Assembly (NCBI RefSeq): GCF_003336875.1
Contig: NZ_QGNJ01000003.1
Span: 62,001-126,000, forward strand
Direction of reading: 5' to 3'
DNA length: 64,000 nucleotides
Source of the DNA: Oleisolibacter albus
Lineage (GTDB): Bacteria > Pseudomonadota > Alphaproteobacteria > Azospirillales > Azospirillaceae
Each line of letters opens with the position of its first letter. Position 1 is the stretch's first letter. The notes below the pieces were generated by a model. It was not told where the DNA came from. It did not search any database and was given only the letters and a program-made list of their open reading frames with translations. The position numbers and the translations under genes were made by a program. Positions 42,372 through 63,975 of this stretch are shown here, piece after piece.

Positions 42372-42395
42372 GGTCTGGCTCCTCATCGCACGCCG

Positions 42396-45670: not shown

Positions 45671-46639
45671 TCACGGCGCCGATGGGCGGCGTACCGTGCG
45701 GAAGCCGATATGGTTGGTGGTGAATTCAGCCTCCTGACCTTGCCGTGCGGCTGGCCGGAAACGGGCGCAGAAATCTGGCGAGCACAGGAAAGATCCCCCC
45801 TTTATGGTGATGGCAGGCCCAGGCTGATGCATCGGAACATCGGCGCGTCTCTGATCGACGTAGGTATCGGCTGTCCATTCCCAGACATTGCCGATCATAT
45901 CGTAAAGTCCATACCCGTTCGGCTCGAAGCAGCCCACCGGAGCACGTCCGCTGAACCCGTCCGCAGCGGTATTCTGGAAGGGAAAGAAGCCCTGCCAGGT
46001 GTTGGCCCGGACCTGTTCGCGTGTCTGGTCCCCCCAGGCGTAGCGCTGGCCGACGAGACCGCCGCGGGCCGCATATTCCCATTCTGCTTCGGTCGGCAGA
46101 TCGTTGCCGCGCCAGCGGGCATAGGCCAATGCGTCCGCATAGGCGATCTGCACCACGGGATCATCTTCGCGTCCTGCGATGGAACTGCCCGGTCCCTCGG
46201 GGTGGCGCCAGTCCGCTCCTGCCACCAGCTGCCACCAGCCTGTCGCCGCCAGCCGCTCGGCATCCAGATGGGGGATCGTGAACACAGCCCCGCCGTCCCG
46301 GCTGCGTTCAGCCACAGTGACATGGCCGGTTGCAGCGACGAAGGCGGCGAACTGCCGGTTCGTCACCTCTGTCCGGTCGATGGCAAACGGCGCCACCGCG
46401 ACCTCGACTTCCGGCGTCTCTTCCGGGTAGAGCGCTCCGGCTCCCAGCCTTACTCGTCCGCCGGGCAGGACCAGCATTTCCGGGCCGCCAGGGTGAGGGG
46501 CAAGGCAGGATGAGCGTAACCCCGTTTCCGCCGATCTCCCGACGGAGATTCGGGCCAGCCAGACCAGCACGGCCGCTGCCAGGGTTCCGGCCAACACCAG
46601 GGCGACAAGGATTGATCGGCGGAGAGCGGCCAGGCGCAT
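45671..46639 (-). CDS. Formylglycine-generating enzyme, membrane-anchored
   Basis: The ATG at 46639 gives 322 residues. The N-terminus RRSILVALVLAGTLAAAVLVWLA is a membrane anchor or uncleaved signal. The FGE fold follows (MLVLPGGRVRLGAG, IDRTEVTNRQFAAFVAATG, LPTEAEWEYAARGG, GLYDMIGNVWEW). GGSFLCSPDFCARFRPAAR keeps the catalytic C-x4-C cysteine pair, so oxidation of a sulfatase Cys to formylglycine is expected. The likely client is the CAPSR sulfatase at 55298-56953. An anchored FGE is unusual, since type I sulfatases are normally modified in the cytoplasm before export. Confidence 0.85.
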   Translation of the reverse strand: MRLAALRRSILVALVLAGTLAAAVLVWLARISVGRSAETGLRSSCLAPHPGGPEMLVLPGGRVRLGAGALYPEETPEVEVAVAPFAIDRTEVTNRQFAAFVAATGHVTVAERSRDGGAVFTIPHLDAERLAATGWWQLVAGADWRHPEGPGSSIAGREDDPVVQIAYADALAYARWRGNDLPTEAEWEYAARGGLVGQRYAWGDQTREQVRANTWQGFFPFQNTAADGFSGRAPVGCFEPNGYGLYDMIGNVWEWTADTYVDQRRADVPMHQPGPAITIKGGSFLCSPDFCARFRPAARQGQEAEFTTNHIGFRTVRRPSAP

Positions 46640-46675
46640 GATCGGCGGGTGCCCGCATTCTATTGACAGATCGAA

Positions 46676-46736
46676 TGCCAAAACATTGCACGTCAACCGC
46701 CGTTGGTCTAGGTTCAATGAAACAATCAGCATTGAA
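46676..46736. promoter_or_regulatory. TGCCAA site and inverted repeat between FGE and the anchored protein gene
   Basis: TGCCAA at 46676-46681 lies in GAATGCCAAAACATT. Further on, TTCAATG (46713-46719) and CATTGAA (46730-46736) form a 7-bp inverted repeat with a 10-nt centre. Both lie in the divergent gap of the FGE gene and the 209-residue protein gene and are candidate operator elements. Confidence 0.4.
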
Positions 46737-46757
46737 ACTGCCATTTCCGGGGGGCGT

Positions 46758-47387
46758 ATGGTGGGGATTGCGATCTGGGGTGTCGCGGCGCTGCTCTACG
46801 CCGCCTTCTGGTTTTGGTATGATGCTGCCGGCCGCCGTCTGACAGAGGCGGAGATCGACGCGGCCCTTGCCAAACTCGCCGCGTCCCGGACAGCAGGCTC
46901 CGGTGACCTTGCCACACTCAGGACCTTCCTGGAGGCGGACGACGGACGAGAGTTCCTGATGCTGAATCTGGTCAAGGTCAATCCCGACCTGTCGGAGCAT
47001 CCGGAAACCAGGGAACTGATGTCTGGAGCCGAAATGTCCCGGGCATACTTCAATCGGTTCCGCCGCATCCTGCTGGGCCGCGCCTGTCACCCCTATTATG
47101 CCGGGCGCAAGATCGGCCCCTATGTCGATTCCTGGGCTGCGCCTCCTGATCCCGGCTGGTCGATGGTCGGGCTGATCCGCTATCGCAGCCGCCGCGACCT
47201 GTTGTCGGTCGTCACGCATCCGGATTTCACCAAAGCGCACGCACTGAAGCATCTCGGGGTGACCCAGACCTTCTCTTTCCCGACCCAGCCGATCGTCATG
47301 CTGGGCATGAGTCCGCGCCATTATGTGGGCTTGGTTCTGGCCTTTGCGGCGGCGCTGGCCCACCTCGCCGTCCTGATGATCCGGTGA
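46758..47387 (+). CDS. Membrane-anchored hypothetical protein, DUF1330-like centre
   Basis: I do not recognise this 209-residue protein firmly. It has membrane helices at both ends (IAIWGVAALLYAAFWFWY near the start, HYVGLVLAFAAALAHLAVLMI at the end). The soluble middle contains FLMLNLVKVNPD, RAYFNRFRRILLGRACHP and VGLIRYRSRRDLLSVVTHPDFTKAHALKH, which is reminiscent of DUF1330/EthD-like dimeric alpha-beta barrels. That fold occurs in small enzymes acting on aromatic or polyketide substrates. It is divergent from the FGE gene. Confidence 0.6.
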   Translation: MVGIAIWGVAALLYAAFWFWYDAAGRRLTEAEIDAALAKLAASRTAGSGDLATLRTFLEADDGREFLMLNLVKVNPDLSEHPETRELMSGAEMSRAYFNRFRRILLGRACHPYYAGRKIGPYVDSWAAPPDPGWSMVGLIRYRSRRDLLSVVTHPDFTKAHALKHLGVTQTFSFPTQPIVMLGMSPRHYVGLVLAFAAALAHLAVLMIR

Positions 47388-47407
47388 GCCCGTCGCTGGG
47401 CGGGGAC

Positions 47408-48133
47408 TCAGCCCGGCTTGCTTGTTTCCCCCTCTGCGGCCCGTCGGTCGACAGTGGCCAACAGGGTTCGGGCCCCTTTGGCGAAATCGTCTTCCTGCCT
47501 GGTGCCGCCCATGGTCAGTTCGAAGGGAACCTTTAGCCCACGCTCGACGGCCGGTCGTCCCCGGATCGCCCGCAGCCAGCGGTGCAGGTTGGGGAAGGGC
47601 TCGATCTCCACGCCCGACCATTTATAGGTGCGGACCCAGCAGAAATTGGCGATGTCCGCGATGGAGTAATCCCCGGCCAGATACTCATGCTCTGCCAGGT
47701 GCCCGTCCAGCACGCCGAACAGCCGGGTCGCCTCGGTCTGGAAACGGGTGATGACGGCGGGGATCTTTTCCGGCCAGTAGCGGAAGAAGACGTTGCACTG
47801 GCCCATCATCGGACCGACGCCGCCCATCTGGAACATCAGCCACTGCAGCACCTGCGACCGCCCTTTGGCGTCCGTCGGCAGCAGCTGGCCGGTCTTCTCC
47901 GCCAGATGGATCATGATGGCGCCGGATTCGAAGATGGGGAAATCCCCCGCCTCCCGGTCCACCAGGGCGGGGATACGGCCGTTCGGGTTGATCTTCAGGA
48001 AGTCCGCTGCTTTCTGCTCTCCCTTCATCAGATCAAGTGCCACGACGTCATAGCCCAGCTCCAGCTCCTCCAGCGTGACGGAGGCCTTCCATCCGTTCGG
48101 CGTCGGCGCGGTATAGAGCAGGTATGGCGCCAT
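47408..48133 (-). CDS. Glutathione S-transferase (YfcG/GstB-like)
   Basis: The 241-residue protein is a canonical GST. The thioredoxin-fold N-terminal domain has [18 protein letters not shown] and the cis-Pro glutathione site [11 protein letters not shown] followed by [13 protein letters not shown]. The helical C-terminal domain has [17 protein letters not shown]. The layout matches the YfcG/Ure2-like group. It is one of five GST-related proteins in this 15-kb cluster and is divergent from the next GST gene across an 83-bp gap. Confidence 0.9.
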
Positions 48134-48164
48134 GGTCGTTCACTCCCGTCGATTTCTGATTGTT

Positions 48165-48193
48165 TTGGCACAGTACGCGCCATAAATTTGGCA
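48165..48193. promoter_or_regulatory. TTGGCA direct repeat in the divergent GST promoter
   Basis: TTGGCA occurs at 48165-48170 and 48188-48193 with 17 nt between. Read on the minus strand the first copy is TACTGTGCCAA, an 11-mer that recurs exactly upstream of the SCP2 gene (50714-50724). Confidence 0.45.
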
Positions 48194-48216
48194 TTCAACC
48201 AGGAAGCGGGAGTCCG

Positions 48217-48861
48217 ATGGTCATGAGCCTCGTCTTTTATGATTTCCCGATGGCCCCGAGTCCTCGACGTGCCCGTATTGCGCTGTTGGAAAAAGGGGTG
48301 TCGTTCCAGACGGTGATTGTCGACCTGATGGCAAACGAGCATCTCAGCGAGAGTTTCCGCCAGATCTCGCCAACGTGTACGGTGCCCGCCCTGCGTCTGC
48401 CCGACGGTGCCGTGTTGACGGAGAACAACGGGATTGCGGCCTATCTCGAAGCGGCCTACCCGGAACCGCCTCTGCTGGGGACAACGCCGCGGGAGAAGGG
48501 GGAGGTCGCCATGTGGACCGCCCGCGTCGAGTTCTGCGGGCTGATGGCGGTAGCCGAGGCACTGCGCAATGGCAATCCGGCCATGAAGGACCGTGCCATC
48601 ACGGGGCCGACCAACTATCCGCAGATCCCCGAGCTTTCTGCGCGCGGCCTTGCCCGGTTCCGAGAGTTCCTCGACATGTTGGAAGCCCACCTGCCCGGCC
48701 GCGATTTCATCGTCGGGGACCGGTTGAGTGTGGCCGATATCGCCGGGGTGGTCGCTGTCGACTTCGCCCGTGTCATTCAGATCAAGCCGGACCCGGAGCA
48801 GCATGCCAATCTGATCCGTTGGCGTAAGGGGTTGCATGCCCGCCCCAGTTTCAGCCGATAG
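48217..48861 (+). CDS. Glutathione S-transferase family protein
   Basis: From the ATG at 48217 the protein has 214 residues. The N-terminal domain begins MSLVFYDFPMAPSPRRARIALLEKGV, with SPTCTVPALRLPDGAVLTENNGIAAYLE as the glutathione site. The C-terminal helical domain has LPGRDFIVGDRLSVADIAGVVAVDFA. It is divergent from the neighbouring GST and the two are not close copies. The substrate is unknown. Confidence 0.88.
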   Translation: MVMSLVFYDFPMAPSPRRARIALLEKGVSFQTVIVDLMANEHLSESFRQISPTCTVPALRLPDGAVLTENNGIAAYLEAAYPEPPLLGTTPREKGEVAMWTARVEFCGLMAVAEALRNGNPAMKDRAITGPTNYPQIPELSARGLARFREFLDMLEAHLPGRDFIVGDRLSVADIAGVVAVDFARVIQIKPDPEQHANLIRWRKGLHARPSFSR

Positions 48862-49078
48862 GTCGGTGGGTCTCTTCCGTCGGTATGGCCTTCCGCTCAT
48901 CAAGGCAAGGGTCAACACCGACGGATCACGCCGCCCGCGATCAACTGCACGCGGTCGCCCCCGTATCGACCGGTTCTTCTCTTCGGGGGCAATATTCTAG
49001 CATTGTGAGTGTCGATTTATGATCCCCGATCCGGCGGTGTGTCGGCCAGGGACATGAAAGGGCGGGAGGACCAGCGTC

Positions 49079-49459
49079 ATGATGAAGGTTCTGGTACGGG
49101 TCGTGGTCGGCCTGAATGGCGCGGTCTTTCTGGGGCTTGGCCTGGGGTTTCTTCTTGCTCCGGATCTGCTGGCCCCGGCTTTCCACCTGCAGCCGGTCGG
49201 TGCGGCGGGCCTGAATACAGTACGCGGTGATTTCGGTGCCCTGTTCCTCGGCATGGCTGCGGTCGGGCTGCACGCCGCGGTGAAGGCGGATGGGCGCTTT
49301 CTTCCCCTGGCCGTGGCCGGCCTGTGCCTTGTGCTACTGGGACGCACCATCGGTCTGGTGTTTGATGGTTCGACGACGTCCGGACTCACCGCCATGGCGG
49401 TGGAACTGACCATTGTCGTCAGCTTTGTTGTCGGGCATCGCCTTTTGCGCCCTGCCTGA
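49079..49459 (+). CDS. DUF4345-like small membrane protein
   Basis: The 126-residue protein has four hydrophobic segments (VRVVVGLNGAVFLGLGLGFLL, GDFGALFLGMAAVGLHAAV, PLAVAGLCLVLLGRTIGLVF and LTAMAVELTIVVSFVVG). The pattern GLNTVRGDFGALFLGMA resembles the DUF4345 family. It has no known function. GGGAGG lies 9 bases before the ATG. The 217 bases between it and the preceding GST gene contain no gene I can support. Confidence 0.7.
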   Translation: MMKVLVRVVVGLNGAVFLGLGLGFLLAPDLLAPAFHLQPVGAAGLNTVRGDFGALFLGMAAVGLHAAVKADGRFLPLAVAGLCLVLLGRTIGLVFDGSTTSGLTAMAVELTIVVSFVVGHRLLRPA

Positions 49460-49538
49460 GGCGGGCCAGATCCCACTGGATCAGCCATGGATGGCCCCCC
49501 TGCTGGTCTTCGCCGCCAGGGCCTGATGCCGGACTGAC

Positions 49539-50651
49539 TCAGCGCCACCAGCGGCCCGTCGGTCGTCGGGCGGGCGACGACCGGATCGGCAGGGGCGGCA
49601 GCAGATCGGGTACGCCCTGCCGCCGAGGGGCGCTCAGGCTGCGTTCGACGAGTTCCCGGCCCAGGATGGCGTCGATCTTTGCCCGCCCACCCGGCCCCAG
49701 CCCGCTGAACGCGGCTTTGAGCTGGTCCAGGCAATGGGCACGATAGGGATTGCTCTGCAACGACCAGTCAATTCCAGCGGCGTCACGATAGGTGAATCGG
49801 TTGGCACCGGCCGCGACGGCTGCGTCATTCGCCAGCAGATACGGCAGATAGTCCTGCCTGATCGTAGCGAACAGGGGGTCCAACCCGTCGGGGATTCCTT
49901 CCGGCAGCGGCGCGTTCCGCCAGTCCTGTGGTCGCAGATTCCACAGCCGAGCCACCCATTCCAGCACGGCGGGTGCCTGATCGCGCATCAACCGGGCTGG
50001 GGTCGGGTCGCAGAAAAAATGGCGGAAGAATGGGCCGAAGACGCCGAAATCGGCAACGGTCGGGCGTGCGCCCAGCAGATATGGGCGCTGGCGGAACACG
50101 GTTTCCAGCGCGGCCAGCGTATGCAGATACAGGGCTTCCACTGCGGGTCTCGTTTCCCGTGTCACGCCTTCACCGTTCAGATAGACATGCCGCTGCCGGA
50201 CCCTGAAAGCGAAGGCGCTGAACGGCAACAGCCAGGGTGGGCCGCCCACCAGACTTTCGGCAATCCGTCGCGACAGGAGCCGGGCATCGGTCGCAAAGGC
50301 CCAGCGATAGTACAGTGCCGGTCGCCACAGCCATTCGTCGGCATAATCCTCCAGAAGCAGAGCCAGGAACCGGGCGGTTTCCTCCACCGGCAGGACCGTG
50401 GGAGTGGCATAGTGGCTTTCCAAATAGCGGATCGTCGGTGTCGTGTCGGTCAGCCAGGAACCGTCCGGCATCTCCACCGCGGGCATCTGCAGGATGCCGG
50501 TCACGGTTCCGCATCGCCGCAAATCGGCCAGATCCATCTCACGATGGACCCAGGGGATGCCTGTCGCCCGCAAATAGGCCTGTAGCTTGCCCGTGAAGTA
50601 AGAAAGGTCCAAGCCGTGGACAACAAGGGGCACCGCCTCTGTTCCCGACAC
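49539..50651 (-). CDS. Large GST-like protein with C-terminal extension (paralogue 1)
   Basis: The start is GTG at 50651 behind AGGAGGAAC, giving 370 residues. The N-terminal GST domain reads LVVHGLDLSYFTGKLQAYLRATGIPWVHR, with LQMPAVEMPDGSWLTDTTPTIRYLE as the glutathione-site region. A GST helical domain follows (RPYLLGARPTVADFGVFGPF). About 110 further residues end with FTYRDAAGIDWSLQSNPYRAHCLDQLKAAF, which normal GSTs lack. The protein at 52631-53788 has the same architecture. No catalytic Ser/Cys/Tyr can be assigned with confidence. Confidence 0.75.
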   Translation of the reverse strand: MSGTEAVPLVVHGLDLSYFTGKLQAYLRATGIPWVHREMDLADLRRCGTVTGILQMPAVEMPDGSWLTDTTPTIRYLESHYATPTVLPVEETARFLALLLEDYADEWLWRPALYYRWAFATDARLLSRRIAESLVGGPPWLLPFSAFAFRVRQRHVYLNGEGVTRETRPAVEALYLHTLAALETVFRQRPYLLGARPTVADFGVFGPFFRHFFCDPTPARLMRDQAPAVLEWVARLWNLRPQDWRNAPLPEGIPDGLDPLFATIRQDYLPYLLANDAAVAAGANRFTYRDAAGIDWSLQSNPYRAHCLDQLKAAFSGLGPGGRAKIDAILGRELVERSLSAPRRQGVPDLLPPLPIRSSPARRPTGRWWR

Positions 50652-50713
50652 CCGTTCCTCCTGCCCGGCCCATCATTGCGATAGGGTCTTGACCCGGGCG
50701 ATAAAATGACACT

Positions 50714-50727
50714 TACTGTGCCAATAG
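50714..50727. promoter_or_regulatory. TACTGTGCCAATAG site upstream of the SCP2 gene
   Basis: TACTGTGCCAA repeats the 11-mer of the divergent GST promoter. CCAATAGT also recurs upstream of the TonB receptor gene. It lies 72 bases ahead of the SCP2 start and 63 bases from the divergent GST-like gene, and may be the operator of the TetR regulator encoded 1.2 kb downstream. Confidence 0.4.
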
Positions 50728-50798
50728 TCCAGCGGGTCGCCCGTGGGCCGAAAGATGCAAACAGAATCAAACGGTATGAGCAGAGGGGGACGGGGACG

Positions 50799-51101
50799 AT
50801 GAGCCTCGCTGAGGTCACCGCGACCATGACGGAACGGGTCGCTGCCAAGGGCGCCATCCGTGGCAAGATCGTGAAGTTTGATTTCGGCAGCGATGGGCTG
50901 GTTCGGATCGATGGTGTGGCCACGCCGCCGGTCGTCACCACCGAAGACGGCCCGGCCGACTGCACGGTTGCCGTGTCCCTGGCCGATTTCATCGCGATCG
51001 CAGAGGGGCGGCTGAATTCCCAGATGGCGTTCATGACCGGAAAGCTGAGCGTCTCCGGTGACATGGGCATCGCTTTGCAGCTTGGTCCAATTCTTGGCTG
51101 A
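50799..51101 (+). CDS. SCP2 sterol-binding-domain protein
   Basis: The 100-residue protein consists of a single SCP2 domain: MTERVAAKGAIRGKIVKFDFG, then DGPADCTVAVSLADFIAIAEGRLNSQMAFMTGKLSVSGDMGIALQL, the typical closing motif. Such domains bind lipids, sterols or acyl-CoAs in a hydrophobic tunnel. The start at 50799 follows AGAGGGGGACGGGG. It heads a likely operon SCP2, DJ-1, TetR, GST-like, DUF2855. Its presence hints that the cluster handles a hydrophobic compound. Confidence 0.85.
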   Translation: MSLAEVTATMTERVAAKGAIRGKIVKFDFGSDGLVRIDGVATPPVVTTEDGPADCTVAVSLADFIAIAEGRLNSQMAFMTGKLSVSGDMGIALQLGPILG

Positions 51102-51178: not shown

Positions 51179-52015
51179 ATGGAGGTCGTGCTTTTCCTGG
51201 GCGTTGGTCTTGTCCTGTTGGTGGCGGTGGTTCGGTTGGGACTACCGGCGCTGCTCCGGCGCTTTGGCCTTCATCGGCCTTATCGGGGCGAAGCCTATGC
51301 GCTGCCGGGCAAACGGGCCTTGATCATCACCACCAGCCATGACCGGCTGGGGGATACCGGCAAGCCGACAGGGGTGTTCGCGTCAGAGATGACGGTTCCC
51401 TACTATGAATTTCTTGATGCGGGGATGGAGGTCGACATCGCCAGCGTGAAGGGCGGGCACGTGCCTATTGAGGCCGACAGCCTGCGCTGGCCGCTGGCGA
51501 CGGATGCTGACCGGCGGTATCTCGCTGACCCGGCATTCCGTGCCAAGACCGACGCTTCGCATCCCATCACCGAGGTCGATATCGCTGCCTACGATATCGT
51601 GTTCCTGGCTGGGGGATGGGGGGCCGCCTATGATTTGGGCACATCGGAGGTGCTTGGCACCCAGATCTCACGTGCATGGGCCGCGGGCAAGGTGGTGGGC
51701 GGCGTCTGCCACGGGCCGCTCGGTTTGCTGAAGGCGGTCGACACAGACGGCCAGCCGTTGGTCAAGGGCCGCACGCTGACCGCCGTGACGGACCGGCAGA
51801 TCAGCCAACTCGGCATCGTCCATACGCCGATGCACCCGGAGCGCGACCTGCGCGCAGCCGGTTCGGATTTCCGCTCTCGCCGGGCTGTCTTCGACATCTT
51901 CGCCGACCTGACCGTGGAGGATGGCCGGCTGGTCACCGGACAAAATCAGAATGCCGGCGCCGAAACAGCCCATAAGATGATGCGGGCGGCCGGAGGGCGG
52001 CCGCGGCAGTCATGA
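51179..52015 (+). CDS. Membrane-anchored DJ-1/PfpI (Hsp31-like) protein
   Basis: From the ATG at 51179 the protein has 278 residues. An N-terminal helix (VVLFLGVGLVLLVAVVRLGLPALL) is followed by a DJ-1/PfpI domain. LIITTSHDRLGDTGKPTGVFASEM holds the conserved Glu, and GGVCHGPLGLL holds the nucleophilic Cys with the following His. The pattern is that of the Hsp31/glyoxalase III branch, which handles methylglyoxal-like aldehydes or repairs glycation. A membrane anchor is uncommon in this family. It overlaps the TetR gene start by four bases. Confidence 0.82.
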   Translation: MEVVLFLGVGLVLLVAVVRLGLPALLRRFGLHRPYRGEAYALPGKRALIITTSHDRLGDTGKPTGVFASEMTVPYYEFLDAGMEVDIASVKGGHVPIEADSLRWPLATDADRRYLADPAFRAKTDASHPITEVDIAAYDIVFLAGGWGAAYDLGTSEVLGTQISRAWAAGKVVGGVCHGPLGLLKAVDTDGQPLVKGRTLTAVTDRQISQLGIVHTPMHPERDLRAAGSDFRSRRAVFDIFADLTVEDGRLVTGQNQNAGAETAHKMMRAAGGRPRQS

Positions 52016-52641
52016 TGGACAAGAGAATGCAAGTGGGCGCGATCAAGGAGACAGATGGACGCCGGCTCCGCCGGGAGAGCAGCCGGCGGCAGGTGATTGC
52101 GGCCATGCTCGACCTGGTGCGGGAGGGAACCATTCAGCCGCGGGCCGAGGATGTGGCGCTCCGCTCGGGTGTCGGCCTTCGCACCGTGTTCCGTCTCTTC
52201 AACGATATGGAGAGTCTGTACCGCGAGATGATGATCGCACTCCGGGGGCAGATCGAGACGCCGCGTACCGCGCCTCTGACCGAGACTGATCCCCTGCGAC
52301 GGCTGGAGGAACTGGTGCGTCGTCGCGCCGAAATCTTCCAGATCATTGAGCCGTTCCAGCGCTCGGCTCTGGCTCTGCGGCACGGATCGGTCTTCCTCAA
52401 GGAAGACCATGCGCGGCTGTTCGGCATGCTGCGCAAATCCCTGGTGCTCAACATAGCCGGGCCGGACACGTTGGCACCGCCGCTGTTTGAGAGCCTCGAC
52501 GCCATCATGGGGATCGAGTTCTGGCTGCGGCTGCGCGATGACCAGGGCTTGTCCCCGGAGCAGACAACCACAGCCATCCTGGCGGCTGCCCGCGCGATCC
52601 TGGCGGCCGGTGGTTGGCCGAGGGGGCAAGATGACCGATGA
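52012..52641 (+). CDS. TetR-family regulator of the catabolic cluster (inferred)
   Basis: The 209-residue protein has a TetR N-terminal helix-turn-helix (RRQVIAAMLDLVREGTIQPRAEDVALRSGVGLRTVFRLFNDMESLYREM) and a helical ligand-binding domain. It overlaps the DJ-1 gene before it and the GST-like gene after it (52631), so it is co-transcribed with genes it may control. Candidate operators are the TGCCAA-containing sites at 46676, 48165, 50714 and 57019. Confidence 0.85.
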   Translation: MMDKRMQVGAIKETDGRRLRRESSRRQVIAAMLDLVREGTIQPRAEDVALRSGVGLRTVFRLFNDMESLYREMMIALRGQIETPRTAPLTETDPLRRLEELVRRRAEIFQIIEPFQRSALALRHGSVFLKEDHARLFGMLRKSLVLNIAGPDTLAPPLFESLDAIMGIEFWLRLRDDQGLSPEQTTTAILAAARAILAAGGWPRGQDDR

Positions 52642-53788
52642 GATCATCCTCTATGGAATGTCCGTATCGCTGTACACCGGCAAGGCGCGGAGCTATCTGC
52701 GCAAGCAGCGTCTGCCCTATATTGAGCGGCCGCCGATCGATCCGGGTTTCCAGACCCGTGTGCTGCCCAAGCTGAAGCGCGTCATCGTGCCTGTGGTCGA
52801 GCTGCCGGACGGCAGCCTGTTGCAGGATAGCACGGACATTATTGACGGGCTTGAAGCCCGGCTGCCGATCGCTCTGCCCTGCTATCCGCAGGGGTCGAAG
52901 CAGCGCGTGGCCGCGCTGGCCCTGGAGCTTTTCGGGGATGAAGGGCTTCTTCGGCTCGCCATGCATTACCGGTGGTCGTATCTGGCCGAACAGGAACGGT
53001 TCATCCGGCGGGAATTCGCCGCCTTCATGGCGCCGACCGCCCCCATCGATGAACAGGACCGGCTGGCCGCCCTGCCGATGGGGCAGATGCAGACCTATGT
53101 GCCAAAGCTGGGGATTACGCCGCAGTCGGCGCCGGTCATCGAAGATGCCTTTTTTGAGCTGCTGGACAGGCTGGAGGCACATTTCCTGCGGCATCCCTTT
53201 CTGTTCGGCGGTCGTCCCAGCATTGGCGACTATGGGCTGATCGGGCCGCTCTACGCTCATCTCGGGCGCGATCCCTATCCGGCCGGCATCCTGCGTCGGC
53301 AGGCGCCGCGCACGGCCCGCTGGATCGAGCGCATGAATGCCCCGAATGCTGATATGGCAGAGTATCCCGATGCCACGCCGGATGCCTTTCTGACCGGGGA
53401 TGCCGTACCGGACACCATCCTGCCCCTGATGAACCTCATGGCCCGCGATCATCTGCCGGAGCTGCGGGCGTTGGTCGACTTCGTCGACCGGTGGGTGGTC
53501 GAGACAGGGGTCGTCGAGGGCGATCCGATCTCTCCAAAGCCAGCCCGCCGGGCCATCGGCTCGATCCGCTTCACCTATCGCGGTATCGAGATCGAATCCT
53601 GGGCCGTTCCCTACACGCTGTGGATGCTGCAAAGGGTGACGGATGCGTATTCCGCCCTCACCGTGTCCGACCGAACTGCCGTGCATGCGCTGTTCGAAGC
53701 GGCCGGTCTTGCCGATCTGCTGACGCTGAAGGCCGCCCGCCGGGTCGAACGGCGTGGCCACATCGAAGTCTGGGGCGCTGTCACCTGA
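52631..53788 (+). CDS. Large GST-like protein with C-terminal extension (paralogue 2)
   Basis: The ATG at 52631 lies inside the end of the TetR gene and gives 385 residues. It resembles the protein at 49539-50651: LYGMSVSLYTGKARSYLRKQRLPYIER against LDLSYFTGKLQAYLRATGIPWVHR; shared PDGSxLxDxTxxIxxLE; a shared YRW segment; and a C-terminal FTYRxxxIxxW extension followed by PY. The GST helical domain contains HPFLFGGRPSIGDYGLIGPLYAHLG. The two paralogues stand about 2 kb apart on opposite strands. The function is unknown. Confidence 0.75.
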   Translation: MTDEIILYGMSVSLYTGKARSYLRKQRLPYIERPPIDPGFQTRVLPKLKRVIVPVVELPDGSLLQDSTDIIDGLEARLPIALPCYPQGSKQRVAALALELFGDEGLLRLAMHYRWSYLAEQERFIRREFAAFMAPTAPIDEQDRLAALPMGQMQTYVPKLGITPQSAPVIEDAFFELLDRLEAHFLRHPFLFGGRPSIGDYGLIGPLYAHLGRDPYPAGILRRQAPRTARWIERMNAPNADMAEYPDATPDAFLTGDAVPDTILPLMNLMARDHLPELRALVDFVDRWVVETGVVEGDPISPKPARRAIGSIRFTYRGIEIESWAVPYTLWMLQRVTDAYSALTVSDRTAVHALFEAAGLADLLTLKAARRVERRGHIEVWGAVT

Positions 53789-57107: not shown

Positions 57108-59567
57108 ATGCCGTCACGCTACAGCCGAAGTCTGTCCGGAGCGTCCCTGTTCACCGTCATGTCCGCTGGCAGTCTTGTGGGCATTCCGGCTCTGGCCCAG
57201 CAGCAGGAAACCAGTCACGAGTTGGAAGAGATCATCGTCACCGCGACGAAGCGGCGACAATCCTTGATCGACGTGCCCGTAGCCGTCTCTGCCCTTCAGG
57301 GGGAGACGATATCCGAAGCGGGCGTGCGTGACATCAAGGAGATGGAAATCCTTGCCCCCGCTCTGGTGGTCAATTCCAGCCTGGGGCCGACGCAGACGGT
57401 CTTCACCATCCGCGGCATCGGCACCCAGGGCATCAATACGGGCCTGGAGCAATCCGTTGGCGTGTTCGTCGACGGCGTTTACCGGGGGCGGGCCGGTGCG
57501 GCAACGACCGACTTCATTGATTTGTCCCGCGTGGAGGTTCTGCGCGGGCCGCAGGGCACGCTGTTCGGCCGCAACACCTCGGCCGGCGTGATTTCAGTCA
57601 GCACGGTGGAGCCCGGGGATCAGGCCTCAGCAAACGCCGATCTTTCCGTTGGCGACTATGGGTATCGCCAACTGCGCGGGGTCGTGTCCGGCCCGCTCAG
57701 CACCGGTGTCCTCGCCGCGAGCCTTGCTGTCACCAGACAGGTGCGCGACGGCTTTCTGGAAGATGTGCGCACGGGTGAGGAGTTCGATGACCGTGATCGG
57801 ACAACGGTACGGGGACAGCTGCTCTGGACCCCCAGCGACGGAGTCCGTATCCGCACCATTGCCGACTACACTGAAACCGACGAGAAATGCTGCATTGCCG
57901 TGCCGATCTTCTATGGCCCGACGGCGGCCGCCATCAGCGGGCTGGGTGGGACCGTGTTTCCCGGCAGACCTGGCCAGGCTGACGGATTCACCGGCAGCTT
58001 CCCCGACGCCTTCACCGGCAAGGTTGCGGTGACCGATGCGGCGCGCCAGCCGACGGACTCAAGCTACACCGATAGCGGTGTGTCGACGGAACTCACCTGG
58101 GAATTCGGCGATGCCACGCTGACCGCCATCGGCGCATACCGCTACTTTGACACCGATCCTGTCCAGGACAGTGATTTCTCTCCACTTGCCCTCTTCTCCA
58201 CCGCAAACGGGCAGGAGATTGACGAATACACCTTTGAGGTCCGCCTGGCCTCATCCGGACGGCAGACGGTGGATTGGACGGTCGGCCTGTTCTATTTCGA
58301 CCAGGAGATCCTGGCCGATCAATACATCGACTATGGTGCCGATCTGCGACGGTTCTTCGATGCGACCCTGCCGCGTGTCGCCAATCCCTTCGCACCTGGC
58401 ACCACGACACCGATCCTGGGCCTGCTGGAACGGGTCACCGGTCGCCCCGCCGGGACCTTTGCCCAGCCCGGCCGCGCGGTGACCGATACGTATGATTATT
58501 CGTCCGCCAGCTATGCCGCCTATGGGCAGGCAACGTGGAACGTGACGGATCGGCTGAGCGTCACCGGTGGACTACGCTACAGCTATGAGAAGAAGGACGC
58601 CGACTATGACATCCTGTCGGCCGATCCACTGTCGCAGATCCCGCTTACAGGCCCATTGGCGTCGTTCGCACCGCTGCGCCCCTTGCAGCAGTTTCCGCAG
58701 GCGAACCCTTTCACGGGGACCTACGATGACGGCAACGTCACCGGTACTCTCAGCGCGGCCTACAGGTTCTCCGATTCCGCGTCCGTCTATGCCCGCTATG
58801 CCACCGGCTACAAATCGGGCGGCCTGAATCTCAGCCGGACGGCGCCGCAGACCACGCCGGGTAATCCAGTGGTCGATCCCGACCGGGTCAAGTTCGATGC
58901 GGAAACCGTCGAAAGCTATGAACTGGGCACAAAACTGCGGCTGTTCGGGCGCCGCGTCATGATAAATTCAGATATATTTTATCAGAAGCTCGATAACTTC
59001 CAGAACAACATCTTCACTGGAACCGGATTTACCATTGTTGCCGACGGCACGGTCGAAGGGTATGGCTGGGAAACCGACGTTTCTGTCGCCGCCACCGACT
59101 ATCTGACCTTCGATGGCGGCCTTGTTGTTCAGGACATCCATTTCGACGAGTACCGCAATGCGCCGCCGACTTCGGCTCAGCAGGCGGCTGGGAGGACCAC
59201 ACAGGATCTGTCGGGTCGGCCGGTGCCGCGGACGTCCGATGTGACGGCCACCCTGGCGGCCACCCTGAAGGTTCCGGTGACCAGCACATGGGGAGCCATG
59301 GTCAGGGTCGATGCCCGTTACCGGTCCGACTACTACACCAATTCCACGCTGGAGGAGGTTTCGAAGCAGGATGATTACGTCACGCTGAACCTGTCGGTGG
59401 GCGTCGGTTCGCCGGACGGCGGCTGGGCCGTGGAGTTCTGGGCGCGCAACCTGACCGACACCGAAATCTACAACCAGACCCTGGCGCTGCCGTTCCAGAC
59501 CGGCACCTTTGGCGCCTTCATCGAACCCCCACGGACTGTCGGGCTCACTCTGCGCGCCAGATTTTAA
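57108..59567 (+). CDS. TonB-dependent outer-membrane receptor
   Basis: The ATG at 57108 behind GGGGGGAAA gives 819 residues. A signal peptide (LFTVMSAGSLVGIPALAQQ) is followed by the TonB box EEIIVTATKR and the plug (VPVAVSALQGETI, TIRGIGTQGINTG, VFVDGVYRGRAGA, RVEVLRGPQGTLFGRNTSAGVI). A 22-strand barrel follows, ending in aromatic F (GLTLRARF). This is the sphingomonad/Caulobacter style of receptor often used for non-iron substrates such as aromatic or glycan compounds. It lies between the sulfatase and the DsbA-like isomerase gene, suggesting import of the same substrate. Confidence 0.93.
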   Translation: MPSRYSRSLSGASLFTVMSAGSLVGIPALAQQQETSHELEEIIVTATKRRQSLIDVPVAVSALQGETISEAGVRDIKEMEILAPALVVNSSLGPTQTVFTIRGIGTQGINTGLEQSVGVFVDGVYRGRAGAATTDFIDLSRVEVLRGPQGTLFGRNTSAGVISVSTVEPGDQASANADLSVGDYGYRQLRGVVSGPLSTGVLAASLAVTRQVRDGFLEDVRTGEEFDDRDRTTVRGQLLWTPSDGVRIRTIADYTETDEKCCIAVPIFYGPTAAAISGLGGTVFPGRPGQADGFTGSFPDAFTGKVAVTDAARQPTDSSYTDSGVSTELTWEFGDATLTAIGAYRYFDTDPVQDSDFSPLALFSTANGQEIDEYTFEVRLASSGRQTVDWTVGLFYFDQEILADQYIDYGADLRRFFDATLPRVANPFAPGTTTPILGLLERVTGRPAGTFAQPGRAVTDTYDYSSASYAAYGQATWNVTDRLSVTGGLRYSYEKKDADYDILSADPLSQIPLTGPLASFAPLRPLQQFPQANPFTGTYDDGNVTGTLSAAYRFSDSASVYARYATGYKSGGLNLSRTAPQTTPGNPVVDPDRVKFDAETVESYELGTKLRLFGRRVMINSDIFYQKLDNFQNNIFTGTGFTIVADGTVEGYGWETDVSVAATDYLTFDGGLVVQDIHFDEYRNAPPTSAQQAAGRTTQDLSGRPVPRTSDVTATLAATLKVPVTSTWGAMVRVDARYRSDYYTNSTLEEVSKQDDYVTLNLSVGVGSPDGGWAVEFWARNLTDTEIYNQTLALPFQTGTFGAFIEPPRTVGLTLRARF

Positions 59568-59581
59568 CCGGAGGGCGGTCC

Positions 59582-60925
59582 GTGCCGATCCAGCGCCTGC
59601 GCCGGCTTCTGATGCCGTATCTGACCTCCGCCCTGGTCTCCGACGCCCGTCGGGATGTGGTGCGGCGACACGCGGAAAAGCGACGGGCCGTCGCGGCGCG
59701 ACCGCATCTGGTCCGTGCCTTCGTGCAGGCCGATGACCCGCATTCGGCGCTTCTGGTCCGGGCCTTGCCGGCGCTCGCCCGCCGGGCGGGTGTGGTGGTG
59801 GTGGTCGTGCCCGTGCCGCCACCCCCCGCCTGGGCTGCTCCCGAGCGGGAACGGTTGCAGTCCTGGGCACGGACCGATGCGGCGTTCCTTGCCCGCCGGC
59901 ACGGTCTTGGGTTGGCCTTTTCCCCGCTGGAGCCGACCGCCATCGAGCGTGCCACGGCGCTGCTCGTCTCAATGGCCGGGGAAGCCCGCGATGAAAGGCT
60001 GGGCGACATTGACGCCGTGCTGACGGCCCTCCACGCCGGGGATGCGGTCAGGCTGGCGGCGATTGCCCGTCGGCATCGGCCGGCGCCGGCACAGGCGGTC
60101 ACCGACACCCTGGCCAGGGGTGATGCGCTCCGGGCTGAGCTTGGTCATTATCTGGGCGGCATGTTGCAGTATGAGGGGGAGTGGTACTGGGGTATCGACC
60201 GGCTGCACTATCTGGAGACCAGGCTGGACGCGTTGGGCGCCACAGGGCTCGCCCCGGGGCCGTCCTTGCCGCCGCCGGACATCCGGCTGCCTGGCCTGCC
60301 GGCCCGGTCCCTCCGGGCCGGGCCGGCACCCCTGGAGTTCTTCCTGTCCTTTCGCAGTCCATACAGCTGGCTTGCCATGGACCGGACAGTGGCCCTGGCC
60401 AGCCATTACGGCGTGCCGCTGAAGCTGCGCTTCGTGCTGCCCATGGTCATGCGGGGGCTGCCGGTGCCGCCGCGCAAGAGCCGCTACATCGTTCTCGACT
60501 GCAAGAGGGAAGCCTCGCGGCTGGGCCTCCCCTTCGGCCGCATCTGCGACCCTGTCGGGCATCCTGTGGAACGCGCACTGGCCCTCATCCCCTTCGCCGT
60601 CGCCCAGGGACGTGGTCCGGCCTATGTCCGTGCTGTTCTGTCCGGCATCTTCGCCCGCGGCATCGATGTCGGCAGGGATGCGGGGCTGGCGCAACTCGTG
60701 GCCGAAGCCGGACTCGACTGGACGGAAGCGCGGGCCGGCCTCACGCGCGATGACTGGCGCACCGAGGCGGAGGCAAACCGGAATGAGTTGCTGACCGCGG
60801 GTCTGTGGGGTGTGCCCAGCTTCCGGATCGGCGGCAATGTGGCCTGGGGTCAGGATCGTCTATGGCTGGTCGAGGAATGGATCGCCGGGGCAGCCTGTGC
60901 AACGGGGGAGGGGACGGTTCCATGA
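59582..60925 (+). CDS. Tandem DsbA/GST-kappa-fold protein (HCCA isomerase-like)
   Basis: The start is GTG at 59582 with GGAGGG upstream; 447 residues. The C-terminal half (residues ~235-440) is a 2-hydroxychromene-2-carboxylate isomerase/GST-kappa domain: EFFLSFRSPYSWLAMDRTVAL with the SPYSW active-site Ser, MVMRGLPVPPRKSRYIVLDCKREASRLGLPFG, and LWGVPSFRIGG with the cis-Pro. The N-terminal half (LVRAFVQADDPHSALLVRALPAL and on) looks like a second, degraded copy of the same fold. Such enzymes use glutathione to isomerise ring-opened aromatics. It is coupled to the MBL gene by an ATGA overlap. Confidence 0.8.
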   Translation: MPIQRLRRLLMPYLTSALVSDARRDVVRRHAEKRRAVAARPHLVRAFVQADDPHSALLVRALPALARRAGVVVVVVPVPPPPAWAAPERERLQSWARTDAAFLARRHGLGLAFSPLEPTAIERATALLVSMAGEARDERLGDIDAVLTALHAGDAVRLAAIARRHRPAPAQAVTDTLARGDALRAELGHYLGGMLQYEGEWYWGIDRLHYLETRLDALGATGLAPGPSLPPPDIRLPGLPARSLRAGPAPLEFFLSFRSPYSWLAMDRTVALASHYGVPLKLRFVLPMVMRGLPVPPRKSRYIVLDCKREASRLGLPFGRICDPVGHPVERALALIPFAVAQGRGPAYVRAVLSGIFARGIDVGRDAGLAQLVAEAGLDWTEARAGLTRDDWRTEAEANRNELLTAGLWGVPSFRIGGNVAWGQDRLWLVEEWIAGAACATGEGTVP

Positions 60926-62016
60926 CGCGGGCCAGCAGAGTCCTTGGTGCAGCCATCCTTGTGCTGGCGATCGGCGCCGGGGGGCTGTTCGCCGCCCGTG
61001 CCCTGATCGGTGCGGCCCTGTTCGAGCGCGTCACACGCAGCACCCTGGCGCGTGATGTCATGGCCGGCCTGCCCGATGGGTTGCACCTGGCGCTTTGCGG
61101 GACCGGCTCGCCGATGCCGGATCGGACCCGGGCCGGGCCGTGCGCCGCGGTGATCGCCGGCAATCGCCTGTTTCTGGTCGATGCCGGCGAAGGGGGCATC
61201 AGGAATGTCATGCTGATGGGACTGCCGCCCGGCCGGATCGAGGCTGTCTTCATCACCCACTTCCATTCGGACCACATTGCCGGGTTGGGCGAAGTCGCCT
61301 TGCAGCGGTGGGTCGGCGGCGCCCATCGCACACCCTTGCCGGTGATCGGGCCGATCGGTGTCAACCGGGTGGTTGACGGATTCAACGCGGCCTATGCGCT
61401 CGATAGTGCCTATCGTGTCGCCCACCATGGCGCGGCCACCGTGCCCCCGGGCGGTGCTGGATCAGTCGCGCAGCCCTTCACCATCCCTCTGGGCGGGCTT
61501 GGCCGAGCGGCGGACCACGTGGTGCTGGAGGAGGGCGGCCTCACCGTCACTGCCTTCCGGGTCAATCATTCGCCGGTTGAGCCGGCCGTTGGGTACCGCT
61601 TCGATTACAAGGGCCGATCCCTGGTCATTTCCGGTGACACTGCGGCCTCACCGAGCGTGACCGTGCAGGCCATGGGAGCGGACCTCCTGGTTCATGAAGC
61701 CTTGCAGCCCAGGCTGGTCAATTATATCGGGGCCGCAGCCGCGGAGCACGGCAATGCCGGCCTGGCCAAAATCGCCGCTGACATTCTGACCTATCACACC
61801 ACACCGGAGCAGGCCGCCCAGATCGCGACCGAGGCGAAGGTCCGTCATCTCGTTCTGACCCATGTGGTGCCGCCTCTGCCACTGCGTCTGCTTTACCCCG
61901 CCTTCCTGGGTGAAGCGCCGGGTCTTTTTCCGGGCGCCATCGCCATTGGCGAGGATGGCATGCTGTTCAGCCTGCCAGCGGACTCGCAGGCGCTTCTCCT
62001 CGATCGCCTGCTCTAA
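60922..62016 (+). CDS. Exported metallo-beta-lactamase-fold hydrolase (RNase Z/AtsA-like)
   Basis: The ATG at 60922 overlaps the previous stop; 364 residues. A signal peptide or anchor (VLGAAILVLAIGAGGLFAARALIG) is followed by an MBL domain with LALCGTGSPMPDRTRAGPCAAVIA, the zinc motif THFHSDHIAGLGE, ISGDTAAS with the bridging Asp, and the late LTHVVPP His. The order is that of the RNase Z/arylsulfatase (AtsA) branch. Since it is exported, an RNA substrate is unlikely; an ester or a second sulfatase activity is possible but unproven. Confidence 0.85.
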   Translation: MTRASRVLGAAILVLAIGAGGLFAARALIGAALFERVTRSTLARDVMAGLPDGLHLALCGTGSPMPDRTRAGPCAAVIAGNRLFLVDAGEGGIRNVMLMGLPPGRIEAVFITHFHSDHIAGLGEVALQRWVGGAHRTPLPVIGPIGVNRVVDGFNAAYALDSAYRVAHHGAATVPPGGAGSVAQPFTIPLGGLGRAADHVVLEEGGLTVTAFRVNHSPVEPAVGYRFDYKGRSLVISGDTAASPSVTVQAMGADLLVHEALQPRLVNYIGAAAAEHGNAGLAKIAADILTYHTTPEQAAQIATEAKVRHLVLTHVVPPLPLRLLYPAFLGEAPGLFPGAIAIGEDGMLFSLPADSQALLLDRLL

Positions 62017-62049
62017 CCTGTCTCATACAGCCAATCCGAGGCACGAACC

Positions 62050-62339
62050 ATGCGCAGCCACCTCGCCCGCCGCCGGGTGCTCGGTCTTGTCCTGCTGGGC
62101 GGCCTGCTTACCGGCGGCTCCGCCTGGGCCGATGACCTGGCGGATGCCTTCAAGCGGGCCGATGCCGATGCTGACGGCACACTGACGCCGGCCGAATTCC
62201 GCATCTTCATCGACCTCAGGGCGGAGGCCGGGGGGACCGGGCGAAGACCGTCAAGGCCCGTGCTCTCTATGACCGTGCCTTTGCCCGTATCGATGCCAAC
62301 AAGGATGGGAAACTGACCCTGACGGAGATTTCCACATGA
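62050..62339 (+). pseudogene. EF-hand protein broken by a one-base frameshift
   Basis: The gene starts with a signal peptide (RRRVLGLVLLGGLLTGGSAWA) and one EF hand (RADADADGTLTPAEF). In a G-rich run near 62229-62241 the frame is lost by one base. The expected continuation RAFARIDANKDGKLTLTEIST, a second EF hand, is in another frame and stops at 62339. Restoring one base gives an intact ~96-residue periplasmic calcium-binding protein. Left as it is, the first frame ends at 62316 with a wrong tail. It could be a real mutation or a sequencing error in the G run. Confidence 0.75.
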
Positions 62340-62349
62340 GCGGGAGCAC

Positions 62350-63975
62350 ATGGTGAATTCGGACACATCCCTCTTTAGCCACATCATCGTTGGCGCCGGC
62401 TCGGCCGGCTGTGTCATGGCGGCCCGCTTGTCGGAGGACCCGCGCCGACGGGTGCTCCTGCTTGAGGCGGGTGGGAGGGACGACAGCGTCCTGATCCGTG
62501 CCCCCCTGCTCATGGGCGAGGCGATCCAATCCTCCCGCTTCAACTGGCACTATGAGACGGTGCCCCAACCGGCGCTTGCCGGCCGCCGCCTCTACTGGCC
62601 GCGCGGCAAGACGCTGGGCGGCTCCAGCGCCATCAACGCCATGCATTATGTCCGGGGAGCCCCGGCGAACTATGACGAATGGCGCGATGCGTTCGGATGT
62701 GAGGGATGGGGCTGGGACGATGTGCTGCCGGCCTTCATGGCGGTCGAGCATCGGGTGAAAGGCGCCGACGTTCTGCATGGAACCGGCGGCCCGCTGTGGG
62801 TGCAGGACATCGACGGGCTGAACCCGCTGACCGAGGCATTCTTTACCGCTGGCGCCCTGTTCCAGTATCCGCGCAACCATGATTTCAACGGTCCCACTCA
62901 GGTGGGGTTCGGCCCCTATCAGGTGACGCAGAGGGGGCTACGCCGGTGCAGCGCCGGCGATGCCTTTCTGCGGCCGGCCCTTGCCCGACCGAATCTGACG
63001 GTTCTGACCGGTGCCCTCGCCACACGGGTGTTGCTTCAGGGGAGGCCCGGCGGCAAGCGACGGGCAGTCGGGGTCGAGGTCCTGTGCGACGGTGCCCTGC
63101 AGACGTTCGCGGCAACGGGTGAGGTTCTGCTCTGTGGTGGGGCGATCAACTCGCCTCAGCTGTTGCAGCTGTCCGGCATTGGCGATTCCACCTGGCTGCG
63201 GGATGCCGGGATCTCGCCGGAACTGGACCTGGCGGGCGTCGGTCGCAACCTCCAGGATCATCTCGATGTCATCGGGCAGATCAGGACCCGCTCGTCCCTG
63301 TCGATCGGCCTGTCCCTGCGTGCCCTGCCGGCTCTGGCCAAAGGCGTTGCTGATGCGCTGCGGGGGCGTGCAGGCCTGTTCTCGACCAATCCGGTACAGG
63401 GCGGCGCCTTCATCCGCTCCAGCCGGGCTGGGGATCTTCCAGACCTGCAACTGGTGTTCACACCGGCTCTGGCGGCTCCGCATGGCCGGGAGAGGCCGGT
63501 TGGGCACGGTGCCACCCTGCATGTCTGCCAGCTTTATCCGAGGAGCCGCGGTACGATCCGCATCGCCTGCGCGGACCCGACGGTGCCCCCCCTGATCGAT
63601 CCGAATTATGGTGGTGATCCATGGGATCTGGAGGTTCTGACCGACGGACTGGATCTGGTCCGTGATCTGCTGGCCTCATCACCCTTCGACTTCGATCGGG
63701 TCTGCGAGGTGCTGCCCGGGCCGCAGGTGCGGACCCGGTCCGATCTTCTGGACGATGTGCGTGCCCGGGCGGAGACGCTTTACCATCCGGTCGGCACCTG
63801 TGCCATGGGACGGGGTGAACTCGCCGTTGTCGACAGCCGCTTGCGCGTGCGCGGGGTCGAGCGGCTTCGCGTTGTCGACGCGTCGGTCATGCCACGGCTG
63901 ATCGGGGGCAACACCAACGCACCGACAATCATGATCGCCACACGTGCCGCCGACTTCATGCGCGATGACGCCTGA
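62350..63975 (+). CDS. GMC-family FAD oxidoreductase
   Basis: The 541-residue protein has the FAD-binding start FSHIIVGAGSAGCVMAARLSEDP and the GMC signature 1 region RLYWPRGKTLGGSSAINAMHYVRG. Signature 2 is near EVLLCGGAINSPQLLQLSGIG; the C-terminal block has LYHPVGTCAMG (catalytic His) and VVDASVMPRLIGGNTNAPTIMIA. GMC enzymes oxidise alcohols to aldehydes or ketones. There is no signal peptide, so it acts in the cytoplasm. GGGAG precedes the ATG. It is the last complete gene of the cluster in the window. Confidence 0.92.
   Translation: MVNSDTSLFSHIIVGAGSAGCVMAARLSEDPRRRVLLLEAGGRDDSVLIRAPLLMGEAIQSSRFNWHYETVPQPALAGRRLYWPRGKTLGGSSAINAMHYVRGAPANYDEWRDAFGCEGWGWDDVLPAFMAVEHRVKGADVLHGTGGPLWVQDIDGLNPLTEAFFTAGALFQYPRNHDFNGPTQVGFGPYQVTQRGLRRCSAGDAFLRPALARPNLTVLTGALATRVLLQGRPGGKRRAVGVEVLCDGALQTFAATGEVLLCGGAINSPQLLQLSGIGDSTWLRDAGISPELDLAGVGRNLQDHLDVIGQIRTRSSLSIGLSLRALPALAKGVADALRGRAGLFSTNPVQGGAFIRSSRAGDLPDLQLVFTPALAAPHGRERPVGHGATLHVCQLYPRSRGTIRIACADPTVPPLIDPNYGGDPWDLEVLTDGLDLVRDLLASSPFDFDRVCEVLPGPQVRTRSDLLDDVRARAETLYHPVGTCAMGRGELAVVDSRLRVRGVERLRVVDASVMPRLIGGNTNAPTIMIATRAADFMRDDA

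Follow-up and report, generated by a model that had tools for sequence, protein, structure and literature searches.

The window analysed here, a stretch of 64,000 nucleotides from the genome of Oleisolibacter albus (G000:C23:62001-126000), carries at positions 45671-63975 a cluster of 16 genes, recognised by open reading frames and Pfam matches, that combines a sulfatase and its formylglycine-generating enzyme (FGE) with a TonB-dependent receptor and several proteins of the glutathione transferase (GST) type. The cluster represents a gene system that is almost certainly real, conserved and patchily distributed, and that very probably serves the catabolism of sulfate esters. Each of its protein families is known; what is new is their combination and the link, found here, between this clade of sulfatases and haloalkane dehalogenases (HLDs) in related clusters. 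Our reading of the whole is a catabolic module for hydrophobic sulfate esters, the natural substrates of which are most likely sulfated organohalogens, such as algal chlorosulfolipids. It is proposed tentatively, with slightly less than even confidence, and was graded lower because of the nearest published precedent found, in Zobellia galactanivorans, which is considered below. No description of the gene combination or of the sulfatase-HLD link was found in the open-licence literature, and we know of no HLD described as paired with an FGE-dependent sulfatase.

Recurrence of the Module in Other Genomes

A rearranged and nearly complete copy of the cluster was found in a distant genome, G1038, where 13 of the 16 window genes have counterparts within about 30 kb (C1:2351075 to about 2381930; tblastn, E 1e-8), in an order different from that of the window. 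The identities amount to 70% for the GMC-family enzyme and the classical GSTa, 58% for the sulfatase, 56% for the metallo-beta-lactamase-fold (MBL) protein, 53% for the SCP2 protein, 49% for the tandem DsbA/GST-kappa-like protein, 48% for the TonB receptor and long GST-like protein 1, 44% for long GST-like protein 2 and the FGE, 41% for a putative membrane protein designated hyp249, 40% for the DUF4345 protein and 37% for the DUF2855 protein. Counterparts of the PfpI and GSTb genes were not found in this genome by tblastn, and the match to the TetR-like gene was weak. The cluster itself extends about 4.4 kb past the window, where G000:C23:126109-130389 holds a third long GST (126109-127149), a second sulfatase and a second FGE, and these genes also have counterparts in G1038 (354, 1282 and 314 bits, respectively). 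A preliminary description of this DNA had closed the cluster at 63975; the end of the window is a given right boundary and not the end of the cluster, three more genes following up to C23:130389, so that the module comprises about 20 genes in total. The joint occurrence of 13 window genes and all three additional ones in G1038, in a new order, is hard to explain unless these genes act together. In the preliminary description, a lack of linkage in any other genome was to count against the proposal, and the genes have turned out to be linked elsewhere, with G1038 as an example.

Recurrence was followed from four anchors, the first of which was long GST 2. Among 80 loci retained from 228 relatives, some of them on short contigs, a sulfatase of this clade stands in 5 (L005, L006, L018, L026, L061), all of which carry further window genes (hyp249, TetR, DUF2855, DsbA, MBL, GSTa, PfpI or FGE), and 61 loci show no window gene besides the GST. 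The background of long GSTs is 72 places in 190 genomes. This family, which adds about 120 residues to a GST domain, occurs widely, its hosts including Halopseudomonas, Salinisphaera, Sphingomonas and Alcanivorax (L007-L083).

The second anchor, hyp249, was detected in 24 of 385 alphaproteobacterial genomes (E 1e-6) and in 5 of 398 genomes of the phylum (E 1e-15). The sulfatase was present in five of the first 18 neighbourhoods (L125, L128, L129, L130, L131) and absent from 13, two of which are stretches that end at contig ends; seven of the genomes behind these 13 carry it elsewhere (G091, G121, G123, G143, G225, G227, G323). Nine neighbourhoods of weaker or other matches yielded one sulfatase (L155), and further loci yielded sulfatases in L163, L165 and L178 and a fragment at a contig end in L183. 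In the genus g314 (L164, L179-L182, L184), hyp249 lies beside a TetR-like gene in another conserved setting that has no sulfatase. The idea that hyp249 marks the system reliably was rejected in part, given the 13 of 18 first neighbourhoods and the six g314 genomes that have no sulfatase in the stretch.

The third anchor was the sulfatase profile A5, built from 12 sequences, which matches sulfatase 1 of the window at E 1.1e-267, this sulfatase being itself one of the 12 rows. It found 27 places in 24 of 385 alphaproteobacterial genomes. The 25 places at E 1e-240 or below, window included, make up the class count; five of them and the window are also rows of A5, and L125, L128-L131 and L155 had already been met via hyp249. 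Two weaker places, L230 (with an HLD) and G137:C61, were left out. The partners in these 25 loci are a long GST in 13 (within about 10 kb), an FGE in 12, TetR in 10, hyp249 in 6, the DUF1330-like sm154 in 5, DsbA and SULF2/3 in 4 each, and MBL, DUF2855 and HLD in 3 each.

The fourth anchor was the sulfatase in family f63, to which G743 belongs, with 74 places in 59 of 179 genomes. In the 40 places that were counted, TetR occurs 27 times, HLD 26, sm154 22, MBL 19, FGE and long GST 12 each, and DsbA 9; outside this count stand six f63 stretches, three with an HLD (L163, L286, L287) and three without it (L285, L288, L289). The gene clustering is far beyond chance; the Poisson values are not tests of independent events, since loci of the same family share descent. 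According to the titles of the records, parts of the cluster occur in Comamonadaceae and other betaproteobacterial metagenome-assembled genomes (MAGs), in Maricaulis and in Hyphomonadaceae, and we take the isolate names of the betaproteobacterial MAGs to mean lakes. No member of this sulfatase clade was found in plasmid records, the best matches there having 38.7% and 35.3%.

Link with Haloalkane Dehalogenases

Next to hyp249, betaproteobacterial MAGs (L004, L005, L006, L008) encode a conserved protein of about 300 residues, which is an HLD. That of L005 has 351.8 bits against the model NF002043 (cut-off 265), and the best PDB match is 5esr, "Haloalkane dehalogenase". HLDs above this cut-off are present in L004, L005, L006, L008 (two), L060, L061, L122, L150, L151, L163, L183 (two), L215, L227, L228 and L230, while those of L129, the second one of L163 and the first one of L230 are below it; the entries of L113 and L150 are one gene. 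When HLDs were scanned singly, 8 of 10 and 9 of 10 passed, plus that of L005. Among 48 aligned HLDs, D121, W122 and D247 are found in all 48, and H277 in 47 of 47, one sequence being cut short. We take D121 to be the nucleophile, W122 and W161 the halide-binding pair, D247 the acid and H277 the base. The first HLD of L230, without the adjacent Trp, was placed in a smaller alignment outside the 48. The closest solved HLDs, 5esr and 6f9o, are DhlA/DccA-type enzymes; proteins of the relatives' clusters exceed the NF002043 cut-off with their catalytic residues conserved, whereas no HLD was found in the window genome.

An HLD accompanies the sulfatase in 26 of 40 f63 loci and in 3 of 25 loci across the class. 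By chance, about 0.02 and 0.01, respectively, would be expected, or 0.18 and 0.11 with one HLD per genome; these expectations assume genomes of 3.5-4 Mb, count HLDs at 200 bits to known ones and ignore shared descent. The background is 29 genes above the cut-off in 24 of 299 genomes of the phylum. In a midpoint-rooted FastTree phylogeny of the sulfatases, read without support values, the HLD-linked loci form six groups; the sulfatase of the window is placed together with L155, L251 and a large group of f63 loci, most of which are HLD-linked. Five blocks (L163, L183, L258, L259, L262) are so compact that no unlisted gene longer than 110 codons has space between their outermost members; the families named in them include an MDR oxidoreductase, and none is a glycoside hydrolase. 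In our opinion, the HLD link points, with a probability somewhat better than even, to a halogenated substrate in the HLD-bearing relatives.

A separate observation concerns L150 (G270:C4:6000-25000) in an alphaproteobacterial genome of 1.4 Mb, where genes for MBL, sm154, HLD, long GST and DUF2855 stand together at 7833-13223; its host is perhaps a partner using the desulfated product. In L005:3971-5374 and L183:11578-13430, the sulfatase frame is split into two open reading frames, by decay or assembly error.

Proposed Pathway and Candidate Natural Substrates

From the families, motifs and linkage observed, we infer the following order of steps. The TonB receptor would import a hydrophobic sulfate ester into the periplasm. 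There the Cys-type sulfatases, which are anchored or exported and would be activated by FGEs of the cluster with a C-x4-C pair, would cleave the sulfate to give an alcohol. The released, poorly soluble alcohol may be handled by SCP2 and GST-family proteins, and the long and classical GSTs might attack its electrophilic carbon, either at the carbon-halogen bond directly or at an epoxide; an alcohol with a neighbouring C-Cl bond readily forms an epoxide. In many relatives, the NF002043-type HLD would hydrolyse carbon-halogen bonds. The GMC enzyme probably oxidises the alcohol, and in G1038 an aldehyde dehydrogenase gene adjoins the GMC gene. An aliphatic acid product could then enter beta-oxidation, as suggested by acyl-CoA enzymes near some relatives: a FadD-like protein in L005, a thioesterase in L130 and an acyl-CoA carboxylase subunit in L061, with FadD-like and other acyl-CoA ligases of L005 and L246 below curated cut-offs. 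The preliminary description's coherent catabolic system, in which a sulfate ester is imported, desulfated and processed by alcohol oxidation and glutathione-dependent reactions, is supported.

The presence of two sulfatases besides an arylsulfatase-like MBL protein would be in keeping with a substrate that bears more than one sulfate, and the acyl-CoA enzymes, the thioesterase and a P450 near relatives (the latter in L130) suit an aliphatic chain. An aliphatic molecule that combines a sulfate ester with carbon-halogen bonds would suggest a chlorosulfolipid or a close cousin. According to PMC13413282, chlorosulfolipids have long been known from freshwater chrysophytes, Ochromonas danica being the first source, and those of Pacific coastal plankton bear up to 11 chlorines, one class having up to two sulfates. 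Chlorosulfolipids specifically are a rather unlikely substrate when singled out in this way. No paper on bacterial removal of chlorosulfolipids or danicalipin was found in the open-licence literature, and we know of no chlorosulfolipid catabolic pathway described for comparison. It is likewise rather unlikely, though conceivable, that with this module a genetic basis for the bacterial degradation of natural sulfated organohalogens (algal chlorosulfolipids) comes to light for the first time; in this case a sulfatase with its FGE would act first, and an HLD together with long GSTs, as a new GST class, would then take the halogens. The HLD-linked sulfatase clade connects the question of the natural substrates of HLDs with that of the fate of chlorosulfolipids and names candidate enzymes. 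If the reading is true, a large group of orphan HLDs gains a natural substrate. The cluster also gives a context to DUF2855, on which no paper was found in the open-licence literature, to the long GST family and to the putatively membrane-anchored alpha/beta-barrel protein hyp249.

Points Against the Proposal and Alternative Explanations

A number of observations weigh against a halogenated substrate or reduce the force of the counts. An HLD was looked for elsewhere in the window genome and not found (the best match, of 41 bits and 29%, is partial, and none was obtained at E 1e-50), and there is none in the stretches read of G1038, the genome closest in content to the window. Locus L242 has about the same gene set as L163 minus the HLD. 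The HLD-bearing loci L004, L150 and L151 show no sulfatase in 19-21 kb, nor do L008, L060 and L122, also HLD-bearing, on their short contigs. When f63-type HLDs were scanned jointly, 15 of 19 reached E 1e-79, which is about the NF002043 cut-off, and four fell short; W161 is present in 44 of the 48 aligned HLDs and is replaced by Phe in L060, L061, L227 and L228. Most of the 40 f63 places come from the upper end of the score ranking, and G694 was picked with its adjacent HLD already known, the HLD count without it being 25 of 39. None of seven partners (HLD, long GST, hyp249, sm154, DUF2855, MBL, DsbA) is found in 8 of 25 class and 7 of 40 f63 loci, some of these partner-less stretches being cut by contig ends. 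The PDB entries closest to sulfatase 1 are a kappa-carrageenan sulfatase (6prm) and 9hh3 (S1-19). Natural 1-chloro-n-alkanes are held to be likely HLD substrates in a review (PMC6299022). Because G1038 shows no HLD in the stretches read and L242 resembles L163 without one, the HLD is regarded as an optional part. The window's own genome carries a GST-rich version of the module, and, as no HLD was found in it, it is its GSTs that speak for a halogenated substrate in this species; such a substrate is possible there, on balance somewhat doubtful. The versions of the window and G1038 may act on other sulfates or may rely on GSTs.

The degradation of unhalogenated hydrophobic sulfates (sterol, terpenoid and polyether sulfates, sulfated fatty alcohols, phenolics), with GSTs opening ether or epoxide rings or bonds and with relatives' HLDs acting in a variant pathway or as other hydrolases, is a less likely explanation that deserves serious consideration. 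It agrees with the lack of an HLD in the window and G1038 versions, with the resemblance of long GSTs to the epoxide GSTs IsoI and StyI and the beta-etherase LigF, and with the lipid/sterol carrier fold of SCP2. Against it stand the frequency of HLD linkage, its recurrence on several sulfatase branches and the intact catalytic residues. Two of the substrate classes named in the preliminary description found no specific backing; the third, sulfated phenolics, is still conceivable. For steroids, none of the 16 window proteins reached the cut-off of a family specific to this class or to steroid ring degradation (15 of them, all except SCP2, were also compared with NCBIfam), the rest of the genome not having been searched, and the GMC protein has 24.7 bits against the cholesterol oxidase model (cut-off 850). 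For lignin aryl ethers, long GST 1 was tried as a beta-etherase and rejected with 18.7 bits against NF042997 (cut-off 440).

Use of a sulfated algal polysaccharide or oligosaccharide, with HLD and GSTs coping with halogenated algal defence compounds, is improbable. This was retained because of Zobellia galactanivorans, in which, according to PMC5613140, HLD-domain and TetR genes (ZGAL_234/235) adjoin the gene of the kappa-carrageenase CgkA; a TetR gene and an HLD domain in a locus directed at sulfated algal material are what the two cases share. The Zobellia genes are induced by carrageenan, and the authors suggest a role in coping with halogenated algal compounds, which is a further point against the proposed module. 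In this flavobacterium, the HLD was likened to DbjA, and FGE, GST, SCP2 and DUF2855 are not named in that part of the source. The carrageenan sulfatases 6prm and 9hh3 are the nearest solved sequences and are of the Cys type, and carrageenan utilisation loci share the TonB receptor with the window. The two differ in that no glycoside hydrolase or SusD-like family was found by Pfam among the 16 window proteins, and the GSTs, SCP2 and GMC, with the HLD in relatives, are indicative of a small, hydrophobic compound. The five compact blocks mentioned above have no space for a carrageenase-like gene, but glycoside hydrolases were not looked for in the flanks of relatives.

Sulfur supply is a frequent role of bacterial sulfatases, and sulfate may be the wanted product, with GSTs and HLD detoxifying the remainder; this, too, appears improbable. 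LLM monooxygenase genes (SfnG/RutA-like) and an aliphatic-sulfonate-type ABC ATPase, all below curated cut-offs, lie near the HLD-type clusters of L259 (6003-7067) and L276 (5710-6507) and hint at such a role, which is opposed by the TetR-like gene and by the TonB receptor, GMC oxidase, aldehyde dehydrogenase and acyl-CoA enzymes of the window or its relatives. A detoxification or defence island directed against a sulfated electrophilic algal compound that is not used as food is very improbable. Many GSTs, a DJ-1/PfpI protein and TetR-like control would suit it, and chlorosulfolipids are suspected of causing shellfish poisoning (PMC13413282), but for pure protection there would be little point in a TonB receptor for import or in oxidative enzymes.

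Gene Content of the Window Cluster

The families listed in the preliminary description (FGE, two classical and two long GSTs, SCP2, DJ-1/PfpI, DUF2855, CAPSR sulfatase, TonB, DsbA/GST-kappa, MBL and GMC) were all confirmed by Pfam. Every gene it listed is present; it had left out hyp249 and the DUF4345 gene, both members of the cluster. Sulfatase 1 (55298..56953, + strand; PF00884, 192.9 bits) is of the Cys type and has an N-terminal hydrophobic anchor. Its formylglycine site, CAPSRASLMTGR, contains C-A-P-S-R and fits C-x-P-S/T-x-R; the site Cys is invariant in 12 aligned sulfatases, the window included, with L125 reading CATSR. Sulfatase 2, beyond the window, has a CSPTR site and an apparent twin-arginine signal, and the second FGE adjoins it. 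A genome-wide Pfam search (E 1e-10) found two sulfatases in G000, both inside the cluster. The first FGE (45671..46744, - strand; PF03781, 258.5 bits) is likely exported, judging from its sequence, and has a C-x4-C pair in GGSFLCSPDFCARFR, presumably the catalytic Cys pair.

Among the classical GSTs, GSTa (47408..48133, - strand; PF02798) has about 295 bits with PDB 6tum/4eci and is YfcG-like below the cut-off, and GSTb (48223..48861, + strand; PF13409/PF00043) is FzlA/MaiA-like below cut-offs. Long GST 1 (49539..50651, - strand; PF13410), long GST 2 (52631..53788, + strand; PF13410/PF13417) and long GST 3 have 44.3, 16.2 and 33.7 bits, respectively, against the IsoI model NF049950, all below its cut-off of 300. 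The AlphaFold model of long GST 2 (pLDDT 94.8) matched the GST 4kf9, the StyI GST 9qd3 (E 2.8e-6) and LigF 4xt0 (E 4.2e-5) in Foldseek. IsoI, StyI and LigF share the GST domain fold with it and differ in that long GST 2 is below every curated cut-off and has a C-terminal extension of about 120 residues, and no monooxygenase family was found in the window cluster.

The protein hyp249 (46758..47387, + strand) has no Pfam or NCBIfam match. In its AlphaFold model (pLDDT 88.2), an alpha/beta-barrel domain, similar to those of dimeric proteins, lies between long helices that are read as membrane anchors; RPA0582 was the best Foldseek match and 4-methylmuconolactone methylisomerase the next. The DUF4345 membrane protein (49079..49459, + strand; PF14248, 31.8 bits) has relatives in L155 and L251, and the DJ-1/PfpI protein (51179..52015, + strand; PF01965, 48.6 bits), with an N-terminal hydrophobic segment, is HchA-like below the cut-off and has a 56% homologue in L061. 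The SCP2 domain protein (50799..51101, + strand; PF02036) and the DUF2855 protein (53813..54886, + strand; PF11017) have 57.8 and 309.7 bits. TetR control, as stated in the preliminary description, can be maintained in part: the gene concerned (52012..52641, + strand) has no Pfam match at E 0.001 and is weakly RutR/MftR-like at E 0.004-0.08, while its relatives recur in 27 of the 40 homologous f63 clusters.

The TonB-dependent outer-membrane receptor (57108..59567, + strand; PF00593, 129 bits, and PF07715) is followed by the tandem DsbA/GST-kappa-like protein (59582..60925, + strand; PF01323, 72.8 bits), the C-terminal half of which resembles 2-hydroxychromene-2-carboxylate isomerase (PDB 2imd, E 2.4e-10). 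The MBL-fold protein (60922..62016, + strand; PF12706/PF00753) has the HxHxDH motif as HFHSDH and is predicted to be arylsulfatase- or RNase Z-like. Its best PDB match is the MBL-fold arylsulfatase 8gyg ("Arysulfatase", 102 bits), with PNGM-1 (79) and RNase Z (63) also similar, and it has 165 bits against the NCBIfam RNase Z model (cut-off 363). The GMC-family alcohol oxidase/dehydrogenase (62350..63975, + strand; PF00732/PF05199) is nearest in the PDB to choline dehydrogenase and alcohol oxidase.

Genomic Setting

The cluster looks acquired. Its G+C content is 0.645 and that of window positions 1-45600 is 0.679, and neither hyp249 nor a gene of the sulfatase 1 clade was found in the four further genomes of this bacterial family that were sampled when the class was searched. 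A full-length tandem DsbA protein was found in 2 of 82 genomes of this family, G000 and G407; as a family marker of the cluster it was rejected, G407 having no other cluster genes above weak similarity. The left flank (window 39552-45543), which shows no sign of cluster membership, contains genes that by eye read like formate dehydrogenase, together with a LysR regulator.

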